Positions 28,128 to 36,488 of a stretch of DNA of 64,000 nucleotides are shown in pieces. The position numbers and the translations under genes are program-made. Below the pieces are notes generated by a model, which ran no database searches, was not told the origin of the DNA, and was given only the letters and a program-made list of their open reading frames with translations. The stretch is from Eubacteriales bacterium. GTDB lineage: Bacteria > Bacillota > Clostridia > Saccharofermentanales > DTU023. Numbering within the stretch: position 1 is the first letter of the stretch; every line of letters begins with the position of its first letter. Location of the stretch: contig JAUNLW010000002.1 in assembly GCA_030532065.1 (NCBI GenBank), positions 1 through 64,000 of the forward strand, given 5' to 3'.

Positions 28128-28152
28128 AAACCGCCGACTCAGCCGGCGGTTT
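28128..28152. terminator. Terminator of the LysM protein gene (bidirectional)
   Basis: Perfect 9-bp stem AAACCGCCG (28128-28136) with CGGCGGTTT (28144-28152); six A on the plus strand before it become a T6 tail on the minus strand, downstream of the LysM gene. Confidence 0.85.
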
Positions 28153-28191: not shown

Positions 28192-30468
28192 TTATTGTCC
28201 TGCAGGGATAGGAGGTAAGAGAATCTCCATACCCTCGGTGAGGAAGTCAGGGTTACTGATCTGCGGGTTGGCCTCAAGTACCAGGTTGGTTACCACGCTA
28301 TCGGTCCGCTGATAGTAAGAAGAGATGATGGCATAGAAGGTATCACCGGCTTTTACTACGTAGGACTGCGCTTGGGCGTTGCCCGGAGTTGAGGGATTCG
28401 GATTTTCCGTATCGGTGCCGGGTTCCGGTGCTTCTTCTAAGGTTTCGCCGGTAAGAGGATCAGTTTCCTGAGCCTTGTTGGTTTCCTCAGTGGTTTCCGC
28501 GGGAGTTGTCTCTTCTGCGGTGGTTTCCTTGGTTTCTTTGGCTTCAGTAGTTTCTTCAGCCATTGTCTCTTTTACCGAGGTGCTTTCTACCGGATTATTT
28601 TTGTCCGATCCGCCGATGAGGCGTACCAGGATGAAGATGCAGACAGCGATGATTGCTACCAGGATCACGTAGAACACGATGCGTTTGGTTTTCTCTTTCT
28701 TGTCATCTTCGTAATAATCGCCATAAGCATCATCGTAGTAATTCTGCTGATAATCGTTGTAGTACTGATCGCGATATTCGTCCTCATAGGATCCTTGATC
28801 ATAGTACTCTCCACCTTGACCTTCGTCATAGTAAGAGCCGTCATCATAGTAGCCTTGGTCTTCCTGTTGATCAGGATAATAGCCGTCATTGTACCCATCA
28901 CCGTAAGGAGGCTGGTTGGGATCGTAGTAATCGCCACCGCCATAACCTTGATCTTGGTAAGGCTCATTGCCATAACCATCCTGGTAATTGTCTTCGGGAT
29001 AGCCATTGTTGGAATATTGACCATAATCGTCTGCCGGATATTGAGCGTAATCATCAGTAGCCTGGTATTGGTCATAAGGCTGTTGATCATAATTTTGGTC
29101 GTATGGTCCAGGAGCAGCACCTTGCTGGTCAGGATAGGCATCCTGTTGGGGCTCATAACCGGCGTTGTCGTAAGGCTCGTTATAAGCAGCGTTGCCGTAT
29201 TGGTCGTAGTTATAGTCGCCGTAATTATCTGCCTGATAATTATTGTCTACCTGGTAGTCAGCATAGCCTTGGTCAGGTGTTTCCGGCTGACCATAGGCAG
29301 GATAATCACTTGCTGAAGCATAGTCTTGACCTGCGGCATAGGCCTGGCCCGCAGCAAAAGCGTCATCTTCTTCCGGAGACGTGGGCGGTACGTTTTGGCC
29401 GGGTTTCATTCCTGACTGAGGTGCAGGTGCCTGACCGTAATAATTATTCTCAGGCATATCGTTTCCACCGACCTGCAAAGCAGAGGCATCATAGCGGATA
29501 GTGGCCTGACTTTGGTCATAAGGAGGAACAAAATTCGGGTCATGCTGGGCGTAAGAGGCAGCCTGCTGATTATTGGCTGTGCCGTTAGAAGCTTGACCCT
29601 GGTATGGCGCGTTGTTGGGTCCACCGTAAGCAGGAGGAGGCGTTTGCGCATGAGGAGCATTGCTCTGTACTTGTCCTTGATCGTCTTTACTCATATCTTC
29701 CACATAATCTACATTGGCCACTAAGACTTGCAGCGAAACACCGGAACGTTTGGCCGCAGCTGCGGTTACTAAAGCAGAGGCTGCCGCTTCCTGATTTTCC
29801 GAGTCCGCTAAAATACGGAGCATTTCCCGCTGTCCGAGAATATCTACAATGGCCTTATTGCACAGGACCAGACTGTCGTAAGCCTGGATCTGGGCTAAGT
29901 TGGAGTAACGAATAGTACCTGCTACGCCAGCTGCGTAATCATGCAGGTGTTGGATAGGATTGCCATTAACATCAATGGCTTCAAAATCAAAGTCACCGGC
30001 AGTTAAAGGATAAAGCGCGTTGGAACGGTAAAGGAAGGCGCAACCGTCTGCGGTGGTTACCGCGGCGATCTCCCCTTCTTTAACGATCAAGCCTGTAAAA
30101 TAAGATTGTCTTACGCCCTCTTGGGCTAAAGTGGCTTTGCCACCTACTTCAATGGCTAAGTCTGCCAGATCGTTGATCTCTGTATCGATGGATTGAGGTC
30201 CTCGCTTAACGTCCCGCATGAGTTTTTGCATGCTGCCGGCAAAGTGAGTCTGCTCAACTGCAGTGCCGTTTTCGGCGGGATAAGCAAAGAGGGCATAAAG
30301 GAAGCCTCTGTCCTCTCGGTCGTGAGACTGCTGGGCAGCTCGACTTTCACTGGGACTGGTGAAGCGGCCATCCAGAAAATAAGCGTCAACAACCTTATCG
30401 TCAGGATAGTATCTAGCATTCACCATCGTCGCGAGTCGGGAACCCACGTAGCGAGAATTTTTGGCCAT
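28192..30468 (-). CDS. PP2C-like pseudophosphatase / disordered / TM / LysM fusion protein
   Basis: Unusual 758-aa protein. Residues 1-250 resemble a PP2C (PPM) fold: GLIVKEGEIAAVTTADGCAF then YRSN matches the 'GDSR-YL-R' strand region, YDSLVLCNKAIVDIL the 'LLCSDGL' region, and AAASALVTAAAAKRSGVSLQ the C-terminal 'A-x-x-LV...DNIT' helix. The metal-binding aspartates expected there are missing, so it is probably catalytically dead. Residues about 255-590 are low complexity, rich in Tyr, Asp, Gln, Asn, Pro and Gly. A single span follows (about 595-618), then a Thr/Glu-rich linker and a C-terminal LysM domain (about 702-755, YVVKAGDTFYAI...). By topology the PP2C-like part is cytoplasmic and LysM binds the wall. 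ATG with AGGAGGCAAGTT upstream. It may relay wall state or cluster at division sites; that is inference. Confidence 0.7.
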   Translation of the reverse strand: MAKNSRYVGSRLATMVNARYYPDDKVVDAYFLDGRFTSPSESRAAQQSHDREDRGFLYALFAYPAENGTAVEQTHFAGSMQKLMRDVKRGPQSIDTEINDLADLAIEVGGKATLAQEGVRQSYFTGLIVKEGEIAAVTTADGCAFLYRSNALYPLTAGDFDFEAIDVNGNPIQHLHDYAAGVAGTIRYSNLAQIQAYDSLVLCNKAIVDILGQREMLRILADSENQEAAASALVTAAAAKRSGVSLQVLVANVDYVEDMSKDDQGQVQSNAPHAQTPPPAYGGPNNAPYQGQASNGTANNQQAASYAQHDPNFVPPYDQSQATIRYDASALQVGGNDMPENNYYGQAPAPQSGMKPGQNVPPTSPEEDDAFAAGQAYAAGQDYASASDYPAYGQPETPDQGYADYQVDNNYQADNYGDYNYDQYGNAAYNEPYDNAGYEPQQDAYPDQQGAAPGPYDQNYDQQPYDQYQATDDYAQYPADDYGQYSNNGYPEDNYQDGYGNEPYQDQGYGGGDYYDPNQPPYGDGYNDGYYPDQQEDQGYYDDGSYYDEGQGGEYYDQGSYEDEYRDQYYNDYQQNYYDDAYGDYYEDDKKEKTKRIVFYVILVAIIAVCIFILVRLIGGSDKNNPVESTSVKETMAEETTEAKETKETTAEETTPAETTEETNKAQETDPLTGETLEEAPEPGTDTENPNPSTPGNAQAQSYVVKAGDTFYAIISSYYQRTDSVVTNLVLEANPQISNPDFLTEGMEILLPPIPAGQ

Positions 30469-30506
30469 AACTTGCCTCCTGTCATCTATTGAATCTGATT
30501 TTAAGC

Positions 30507-30515
30507 ATTATAGCA
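30507..30515 (-). promoter_or_regulatory. Extended -10 promoter of the LysM protein gene
   Basis: Minus strand TTTGC-TATAAT (-10 at 30507-30512, TG extension upstream). No clear -35. The start codon is about 40 bases downstream. Confidence 0.5.
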
Positions 30516-33131: not shown

Positions 33132-35036
33132 TTAGAGCAGTTTTCTTACATCTCCCTGCATACGTGTCAACTTACAGCTGTCAAAATAGTCCAGGATTGC
33201 CAAAGCATACTTACGAGAAGAATCAATATAATCTCTAAAGTCTGCTAACTTTAGCTCACCTTGTTCCTGTATGGTCTTGACCACAAAGGAACGTGCTTCT
33301 TCAAGGCATTGCGGGTGGATATTGAGTTTATCGTCTAAGCGGATCAGGCGGCCTTCATCCAGCAGGTGCGATAGGAGTGCAGGAATATCCTGGAAATTAT
33401 TGAATTTAGCACGCACTTCTTCTACTTCTGGTGGCGCAAAGCCTGACTGATGGTATAAATCCACTATCTTGTCTTCAAGCGCGATCTGCTCCGGACTCAA
33501 GTCCAAGCTGAAGTTAGCTAATGAAATTATTCCATTCTTTTCTTTGAGTATGCCCTGGCTGACTAGTAAGTTAAGTATCTTATCAGTATACTCCAGCTTT
33601 ACCTCCGGCAAGAGACTGGTGCGCAGGGATTCTCTACGCAAGCCACTCTTGAGCGGGTTTACCTTGTGGAAGTCATGCAATACTCGCTCAGCCGCGCCGG
33701 CCATATTTTCTAGGAACAGGGCTGAGATGTAGACCTGACCGGTTAACTGATAGATTTTAGCATGTTCTAATAAGTCCGCTAGCGCTGCTTTGCCAACTTC
33801 TGGCACTTCGGCAGTCAAACCGCTCCGACGCATGGCCTGTTTGATGTCGCTGAAGAAAGGGCTGGCAGTATCTATAGCCGCCAATAGACGTTCTTCGGGC
33901 GTGGCCATCCGCAGAGCGCTCAAATGCTCATACCAACTGACGTTCTTTACTCTTCTGGTGCGAGGGCAAGGATCTAACACATGTCCGCCGCCAATGGTTA
34001 CTGTCGGAGAAAAAAAACGTAAGACAAAAGGATCGCCATACTTGAGAACTACGTCATCTTGGAAGTTTAACCTGGCTACCGTAGATTCACCCGGTAAAAG
34101 TTCTTCCCGGTCTAAAAGTCGTACCTGACAAACCTGTTCTGCCGCACCGTAATGGAAGTGTACTCGCGAGCGATTTTTAATGCTGTAGGGTGATTTAGCC
34201 GCCAGGCGCAGGCTCACATCCAAAATATTGCTTAAATCCAGGCTGCCAGCGGCGGCTAAAACCTGTCCTCGCTCAATATCTTCTTTGGATACTTGGGCCA
34301 GATTGATAGCCGTTCTTTGTCCGGCAAAAGCTCTTTCCTGGTCTTGATCATGAACTTGTACATTGCGTACTCGTACTTCCAACCCTTGCGGATAGACCAT
34401 GAGTTTATCTCCTGGCGCTACCTGTCCTTCAAAGACGGTGCCGGTCACTACCGTACCAAAGCCACCCACAGAAAAGACTCGGTCGATGGGCTCACGGAAG
34501 GGCAGGTCTGGATCTTTTTCCGGCAGTTCGGCTACGGCCTGGGCAATGGCCTGGCGCAGCTCATCGACACCCTCTCCTGTATATGCAGATACTTTATAGA
34601 TAGGACTTTGCTCAAAGAAAGTTCCGGCCACGCTCTCGCGAACTGTTTCCTCAACCAGCTCCAACCATTCTTCGTCAACCAGGTCAGTCTTAGTTAAGAC
34701 CACCATGCCGTGCTTAATATCCAGCAGGCGTAAAATCTCCAAGTGTTCTTCGGTTTGCGGCATAACGCCTTCATCAGCGGCAATAACCAAAAGCGCCAGA
34801 TCTATGCCGCCGGCACCGGCCAGCATATTGTGCACAAAGCGTTCGTGACCAGGCACATCGATAATGCCCGCGCGCGAACCGTCCGGCAGGTCCAGGTAGG
34901 TAAAGCCCAACTCAATGGTGATTCCCCTCTTCTGCTCTTCTTTGAGGCGGTCGGGATTTACACCTGTCAAAGCCTTGATCAGGCTGGATTTGCCGTGATC
35001 TACATGGCCGGCAGTACCGATAATTACGTGCTTCAT
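33132..35036 (-). CDS. selB: Selenocysteine-specific elongation factor SelB
   Basis: 634-aa GTPase that delivers Sec-tRNA to UGA codons marked by a SECIS hairpin. G1 motif [11 protein letters not shown] at the N-terminus, effector segment [14 protein letters not shown]3 DVPGHERF, G4 TKTDL. Central EF-Tu-like domains II and III follow, and the C-terminal half carries winged-helix repeats that bind SECIS RNA (final segment [21 protein letters not shown]). Starts at ATG 35036, only 3 bases after selA's stop, with AGAGGAAAG upstream. The three recoded genes in this window are its expected targets. Confidence 0.97.
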
Positions 35037-35039
35037 TTT

Positions 35040-36488
35040 TTATTCTACTTTCCTCTTCTGACCTGAGGTCGGCATAGGGTTACGCACTTTATCCAGTGCC
35101 TCTTGGATAGCTTCCACCAGTGGCGCGAATTCTTCATCCGCCACAGTCCGCAGATCGAAGATCAGCTGGTCGTTTTGAATAAAGCTGATAACCGGAATTT
35201 CTCCCAGTCGGAGAGCCTCCTCCAATACATCAAGGCTGAAGTCTACATCCTTGCCTTCTATGGCCAAGGCTGGGGTTGTAAAGTAAAGGCCGGGTGCTGA
35301 GCCACCACCAACTTCACCTCTGGTCTCAATAATTTTGGCCGGTAGTTCTTCTGAGCTCAGATGGTGGGCCAGTTTCTGGCACTTAGCTATCAGTTCTTCT
35401 GAAGTTTGTGACAACATGCGGAAGAGCGGTATCTCGCGGTTGATCCTCTCAGGATCCGGATAAATACGCAGAGTTTCCTGAAGCGCGATCAAAGTTAGTT
35501 TGTCGCAGCGCAGTGCCCTGGTCAGTGGATTAGCCTTGATCTGCTCAATAAGATTCTTTCGACCCACGATGATACCTGCTTGAGGTCCACCCAACAGCTT
35601 ATCGCCACTAAAAGAGATAAGATCACAACCAGCAGCAACCGCTTCCTGCACGGTGGGTTCATTGCGCAGGATCGCCGGCGGCTCAGGATGGAGCAGGCCG
35701 GATCCGAGATCGTACAAGATGAGGCTACCTTTCTCATGGGCCAGTTTTACCAAATCTTCAATGGAAACTTCTTCCTGGAAACCCTCCAAACGGAAGTTGG
35801 AGCGGTGGACCTTGAGAATACAGGCGGTCTCGTCACCCATAGCCTGCTCGTAATCTTCAAGGCGAGTCTTATTGGTGGTGCCAACTTCTCTAAGAGTTGC
35901 GCCACTTTCTTCCATAACGTCAGGAACGCGGAATTTGCCACCTATCTCCACCAGTTCTCCACGCGAGACAATAGCTTCTTTATCTCTGGCTAAGGCTCTC
36001 AGCATGAGCATTACTGCGGCGGCATTATTATTAACCACCATGGCAGACTCTACACCCAAAAGCTTTTTTAGCTGGTCTTCAAGGGCATCATAGCGTGAGC
36101 CACGCCGCCCTTCCTGCAATCGGTATTCCAGATTGCTGTAAGCATGCCCAATATCCACTACTCGTTCCATCAAGTTTCTGTCGAGCGGAGAACGTCCCAG
36201 GTTGGTGTGGAGACTGATACCTGTACAATTGATAACCGGTTGGAGTAAGAGAGCGTTGTCTTCTTCGTAGTCACGCTTAACTCTCATAAAGATACCAGCA
36301 GGACTTAATTCGTCCTGGCTTTCGATCTCACCGCGGCCTATGGCTTGTCTAAGCTCAGCCAGTTGTTTCTGAACGCTCTGATAGAGCCTACTCTCTCCCC
36401 AGACTCGGGCCAAATCACGGAAGCTCTCTTCCTGGAGCAAACCGTCTACCGGGGGTATAGAGCGAAATAGTTGTTGCTTGTCAGGCAT
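35040..36488 (-). CDS. selA: L-seryl-tRNA(Sec) selenium transferase SelA
   Basis: 482-aa PLP enzyme converting Ser-tRNA(Sec) to Sec-tRNA(Sec) using selenophosphate. The N-terminal segment LFRSIPPVDGLL is typical, then INCTGISLHTNLGRSPL, and PLP-binding Lys297 in SFSGDKLLGGPQAG. Length is close to the family norm. ATG with AAGGAG upstream. Likely one transcript with downstream selB; the DUF3343 gene ends 34 bases upstream of the start. The cognate tRNA gene (selC) was not found in this window. Confidence 0.97.
   Translation of the reverse strand: MPDKQQLFRSIPPVDGLLQEESFRDLARVWGESRLYQSVQKQLAELRQAIGRGEIESQDELSPAGIFMRVKRDYEEDNALLLQPVINCTGISLHTNLGRSPLDRNLMERVVDIGHAYSNLEYRLQEGRRGSRYDALEDQLKKLLGVESAMVVNNNAAAVMLMLRALARDKEAIVSRGELVEIGGKFRVPDVMEESGATLREVGTTNKTRLEDYEQAMGDETACILKVHRSNFRLEGFQEEVSIEDLVKLAHEKGSLILYDLGSGLLHPEPPAILRNEPTVQEAVAAGCDLISFSGDKLLGGPQAGIIVGRKNLIEQIKANPLTRALRCDKLTLIALQETLRIYPDPERINREIPLFRMLSQTSEELIAKCQKLAHHLSSEELPAKIIETRGEVGGGSAPGLYFTTPALAIEGKDVDFSLDVLEEALRLGEIPVISFIQNDQLIFDLRTVADEEFAPLVEAIQEALDKVRNPMPTSGQKRKVE

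Follow-up and report, generated by a model that had tools for sequence, protein, structure and literature searches.

A probable cell-wall-tethered PP2C pseudophosphatase retained across an order of Clostridia

Introduction

Why would a bacterium keep a phosphatase-like domain in a membrane protein when most of the residues expected to bind its catalytic metals have gone? This question is raised by a gene on the minus strand of the window, by which we mean the whole 64,000-nucleotide stretch of DNA analysed here, from a Eubacteriales bacterium of the order Saccharofermentanales. The first-pass annotation had read its product as a PP2C-like domain lacking the metal-binding Asp residues, followed by a low-complexity region, one membrane span, a Thr/Glu linker and an extracellular LysM domain, an arrangement with which it was unfamiliar. 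Here, we describe the fold, ancestry, catalytic state and distribution of this protein family and weigh the roles that it may play.

Results

The following features were assigned to the gene and its flanks:

30507..30515, minus strand: perfect extended -10 element TGCTATAAT, 5' of the ATG
30475..30480, minus strand: ribosome-binding site AGGAGG, from the sequence
28192-30468, minus strand: coding sequence, ATG start, 758 aa, with orthologues; putative PP2C-like pseudophosphatase with disordered arm, membrane span, Thr/Glu linker and LysM
29698..30468, minus strand: PP2C-fold domain, residues 1-257 (AlphaFold2, PDB matches, HHalign, motif table); D28 kept, Asps of DG, SDG and DN absent
28699..29694, minus strand: cytoplasmic arm, residues 259-590, of low complexity and presumably disordered, differing in length and composition between genera
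28618..28680, minus strand: single membrane span, residues 597-617, from hydrophobicity and sequence
28378..28617, minus strand: Thr/Glu/Pro-rich linker, predicted extracellular, residues 618-697, from composition
28204..28374, minus strand: LysM domain, residues 699-755 (Pfam, AlphaFold2, PDB match, alignment)
28128..28152, minus strand: intrinsic terminator, an 11-pair stem and then a T run, 3' of the coding sequence

The gene has a promoter and terminator of its own, as first annotated, in TGCTATAAT and the stem at 28152-28128, and TGNTATAAT is also found 5' of the orthologues L031, L071, L034, L043 and L047. The coding sequence lies 117 bases after ispD on the same strand, and the alaS-HIT pair is convergent to it. 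A wall or phosphorylation theme is absent from the neighbours radA, ispD and alaS-HIT, and from serC-serA in other families; likewise, no kinase or FHA gene was found nearby. In families f2 and f4 (L043, L044, L046, L047 to L049), serC and serA follow the gene, and radA-ispD and alaS are not beside it; the protein is conserved although its neighbourhood changes between families of the order. Separately, selB and selA lie at 33132-36488 of the window, directly upstream of radA-ispD, which makes selenoprotein synthesis by this organism probable; an in-frame TGA in the neighbouring open reading frames should be read with that possibility in mind.

AlphaFold2, with 41 orthologues in the input, modelled residues 1-257 as one confident domain (pLDDT 89.5). 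The PDB matches of this model were PP2C phosphatases, with E down to 6e-9 (Foldseek), and VIA-align gave Z of 17.1 for the S. agalactiae phosphatase and 16.5 for PstP, each with about 195 residues aligned at an rmsd of about 4 A. Profile-profile comparison with HHalign related the domain to canonical Stp1 (P 3.8e-6), to active FYxNG-type PP2Cs (P 4.6e-13) and to degenerate LysM relatives (P 2e-25), in an alignment collinear with the PP2C motifs; column-permuted decoys scored 22-24, compared with 47-97 for the real profiles. The PP2C beta-sandwich fold and sequence homology both place the domain in the PP2C/PPM superfamily, and we conclude that its ancestry lies among the active PP2C phosphatases of the organism's own class. 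The structure prediction, set beforehand as the result that could overturn the PP2C reading, returned a PP2C fold and not an unrelated one, and the proposed HMM-HMM search agreed with it. Against Pfam and NCBIfam, the N-terminal domain alone gave no match above cut-off; weak Stp1 matches below cut-off appeared in 9 of 21 members, and the Stp1/IreP equivalog NF033484 reached 13.3 bits against a cut-off of 230. Since no PP2C was found when PDB chains were searched by sequence with the domain profile, sequence alone would miss this kinship, which is visible only via folds and intermediates.

We counted the catalytic Asps column by column at five positions (NED, DG, GD, SDG and DN) in 21 diverse proteins of the order. 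The Asp of motif I (NED), D28 in the window protein, is kept in 20 of 21; the DG and SDG Asps occur in none, the DN Asp in one, as a stray D by position, and the GDSR Asp in three, unconserved. At least three of the five are lost in every member sampled. The window protein has lost three and retains D28 and D141, the latter at the GDSR position that is unconserved in the family, and so does not hold the complete metal-binding set of an active PP2C phosphatase. The earlier statement that the metal-binding Asps are absent is therefore right for DG, SDG and DN, but it overlooked the near-invariant D28 and the presence of D141. From the loss of the DG, SDG and DN Asps, we regard the protein as a PP2C-derived pseudophosphatase, predicted from its sequence to be inactive. 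The alignment shows no evident counterpart of the phosphate-binding Arg of canonical PP2Cs; any binding of phosphoproteins would therefore require a new mode. Mean entropy at residues 179-193, in the strand that follows the former FLAP region, is 0.79 compared with 1.56 overall, and this strong conservation suggests a new binding face. Two family-specific conserved surfaces were recognized, the FY-[LIM]-DGR insert and a segment, AGxAGTxRYSN, located past the former FLAP region.

Many polar residues of the domain are near-invariant, and a re-purposed active site could in principle be built from the conserved D28, D33, D95, E133, D198 and N204, with the motif-I Asp kept in nearly all members, so that the protein would still be an enzyme. 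However, the DG, SDG and DN ligands have all been lost, and two or three metals are required by the known PPM phosphatases (PMC12002173). Positions 141 and 205, once catalytic, also vary freely (entropy 2.6 and 2.5, respectively). D198 is shared with canonical PP2Cs, where it belongs to the GD that precedes LLCSDG, and its role is probably structural. We consider a surviving enzyme highly unlikely.

The arm bears out the low-complexity stretch first described, with 72% Y/D/Q/N/P/G and 16.8% Tyr over residues 259-590. Its Tyr content is 15-17% in the window's genus and one g7 member, 9% in another, incomplete g7 member, and 0-9% in other genera, and its length ranges across the family from 70 to 677 aa. 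Because the Tyr-rich form is confined to two genera, it cannot be the core function of the family. A membrane condensate formed by the arm, an idea that grew from the 16-17% Tyr with Q/N/P/G in the window's genus, would be very improbable as the main function: Tyr is at 9-17% in two genera only, compared with 0-9% elsewhere, and the same ends also flank much shorter arms, down to 70 aa.

The membrane span is single, as annotated, and strongly hydrophobic, with K/R on its N-terminal side (KKEKTKRI), a basic flank fitting the predicted N-in/C-out topology. The PASTA kinase model NF033483 scored 21.3 bits against a cut-off of 450, in the membrane region only, and the SAG1386/EF1546 model NF042931 scored 25.2 bits against 80, at residues 573-713 only. 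Weak matches to PD-T4-6 defence and phage superinfection-exclusion profiles fell only in the low-complexity membrane/linker stretch and were rejected. In most of family f1 (L033, L035, L036, L037 and others), a motif resembling R-[TS]-G-[RK]-[LI]-N-L-G-[RL]-F-x-T directly follows the PP2C-like domain; it is missing in the window's genus and may be a docking peptide for the domain.

The Pfam LysM model PF01476 scored 20.8 bits in the window protein (E=3.7e-4), just below its cut-off of 20.9, and 26-53 bits in most orthologues tested, with a top score of 52.6. AlphaFold2 predicted a beta-alpha-alpha-beta arrangement for the C-terminal region, whose top structural matches are LysM domains at modest E-values. 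These results confirmed the C-terminal LysM domain and, together with linker composition, upheld the proposed Thr/Glu linker and LysM, with their extracellular position predicted. In genus g2 (L016, L017, L020, L021, L025, L034), bacterial SH3_3 takes the place of LysM in an otherwise retained protein (Pfam, tested on L034), which shows that the module for wall binding can be exchanged. Some family members have no recognisable LysM.

The gene was found in 176 of the 188 genomes of the order, in 101 of 106 good ones and in all 30 genera, almost always as a single copy. Its frequency is far higher than expected by chance, and this retention implies that the protein does a real job. It is absent from a few high-quality genomes and is therefore not strictly essential everywhere. 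Named relatives are MAGs labelled Mageeibacillus, Fastidiosipila, Clostridiaceae and Oscillospiraceae. The order of parts is constant among the orthologues compared. Between congeners, the PP2C-like domain shows 73% identity, pN of about 0.17 and dN/dS of about 0.09, ratios that are rough because synonymous sites are near saturation; identity is 27-41% in the arm and linker (pN 0.40-0.52) and 50-59% in LysM. The PP2C-like domain is under strong constraint. The frame is open, selection is purifying and the gene is retained across the order, so a decaying pseudogene was rejected. Two loci of the same order, L217 (G044:C44) and L229 (G047:C17), encode insert-type PP2Cs of 541-570 aa with all five Asps intact and a hydrophobic C-terminal tail; such an intact PP2C may be an active partner of the dead protein.

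Elsewhere in the class, PP2C-TM-LysM homologues have the same order of parts and range from intact through fully degenerate. One of them, L134/L167, combines all five Asps with a membrane span and two LysMs, L168, L169 and L172 keep four Asps, and others one to four. The FYxNG/FYxDGR insert is common to these homologues, while most canonical Stp1 proteins are without it. In a separate clade, of membrane proteins that lack LysM, zero to three Asps are kept. L218, L219, L220, L226, L227 and L228 (f18 and others) form a separate membrane PP2C-like clade whose members have long tails rich in Pro and Thr and have lost catalytic residues, a second, independent run of catalytic decay. Outside the class, only short, canonical-like PP2Cs were among the best loci fetched from a phylum-wide sample.

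When the catalytic columns were left out of tree building, the proteins of the order formed one clade (100/100) on a long stem, nested among PP2C-TM-LysM proteins. The enclosing clade of LysM-type proteins is well supported (100/99); the intact proteins closest to it are soluble enzymes, L174 among them. L167 branches outside the main LysM clade, with modest support, and may therefore have gained its LysM independently. By parsimony, no fewer than three changes on the tree account for the incomplete catalytic sets, which puts the number of catalytic losses at about three. A membrane span is present in every sampled member with an incomplete Asp set, and the span-less members are all intact.

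Discussion

We consider it probable, on balance, that the protein is a cell-wall-tethered PP2C pseudophosphatase acting as a scaffold or sensor that connects a cytoplasmic process with wall state or position. LysM would bind peptidoglycan, the linker would span the wall gap, and the flexible arm would keep the dead PP2C domain close to the membrane. The domain may then bind a protein partner through the FY-[LIM]-DGR insert and the AGxAGTxRYSN segment, and the wall would thereby be coupled to the cytoplasmic process, most likely wall growth or division. A possible route is the PASTA kinase/Stp1 (PrkC/Stp1) pair of most of these genomes, in an MviN-like manner. The PASTA kinase gene is present in 53 of 59 relatives and a genuine Stp1 in most, which allows, but does not show, such a link.

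An alternative role would be that of a structural membrane-to-wall tether or localisation factor: the PP2C fold would serve as a stable cytoplasmic knob for binding a cytoskeletal or division protein, unconnected with phosphorylation signalling. The loss of all signalling chemistry, an arm as free in length as a spacer, the exchange of LysM for SH3 and the lack of kinase or FHA genes nearby would all suit it. However, four or five Asps are still present in L167, L168 and L169, relatives from other parts of the class that share this architecture, which argues for an ancestry in signalling, and we regard the purely structural role as rather unlikely. For Clostridia as a whole, we tentatively propose, at somewhat less than even likelihood, a receptor-like PP2C class that mirrors the PASTA kinases: its active members would be wall-responsive phosphatases, and several lineages would have become pseudophosphatase regulators, with this order as the extreme.

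Among known systems, the nearest functional precedent would be MviN, and the nearest PP2C pseudophosphatases would be PHLPP2 and TAB1. MviN (Rv3910) is a mycobacterial membrane pseudokinase that tunes peptidoglycan synthesis via PknB and FhaA, and MviN and EssB provide a precedent for wall-linked pseudoenzymes (PMC12599244). Like the window family, MviN and EssB/YukC are membrane proteins with a dead cytoplasmic signalling-enzyme domain; unlike it, they have a kinase fold, other membrane parts and no LysM. TAB1 and PHLPP2 share the PP2C fold, have lost metal ligands and are thought to scaffold (PMC12002173), but they are eukaryotic, soluble or LRR-linked, and keep a single metal. The PPM phosphatases Stp1, PrpC and PstP have the fold, the order of strands and helices and profile homology in common with the window family, which differs in its incomplete metal site, FYxDGR insert, rewritten FLAP region, membrane anchor and LysM; canonical Stp1 is a separate gene in the same genome. 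PrkC-type PASTA kinases likewise join a cytoplasmic signalling domain through one membrane span to a wall-binding ectodomain, but the kinase is active, the ectodomain consists of PASTA repeats and only the membrane/linker stretch matches by profile. In the SAG1386/EF1546 surface proteins (NF042931), the match covers the stretch before the span, the span, the Thr/Glu linker and the start of LysM, and leaves the PP2C-like domain unmatched.

The architecture that the first-pass annotation could not place indeed has no named family: Pfam and NCBIfam hold no model for the N-terminal domain or for the whole. However, it is no one-off, since it is found across the class and is near-universal in the order. 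We found no description of a bacterial PP2C pseudophosphatase, with or without LysM, in the open-access literature; bacterial pseudokinases are known, and their PP2C counterpart is apparently undescribed. The intact-to-dead series within one architecture allows the change from signalling enzyme to scaffold to be studied, and the protein is a candidate for a missing partner in wall-linked Ser/Thr phosphorylation.
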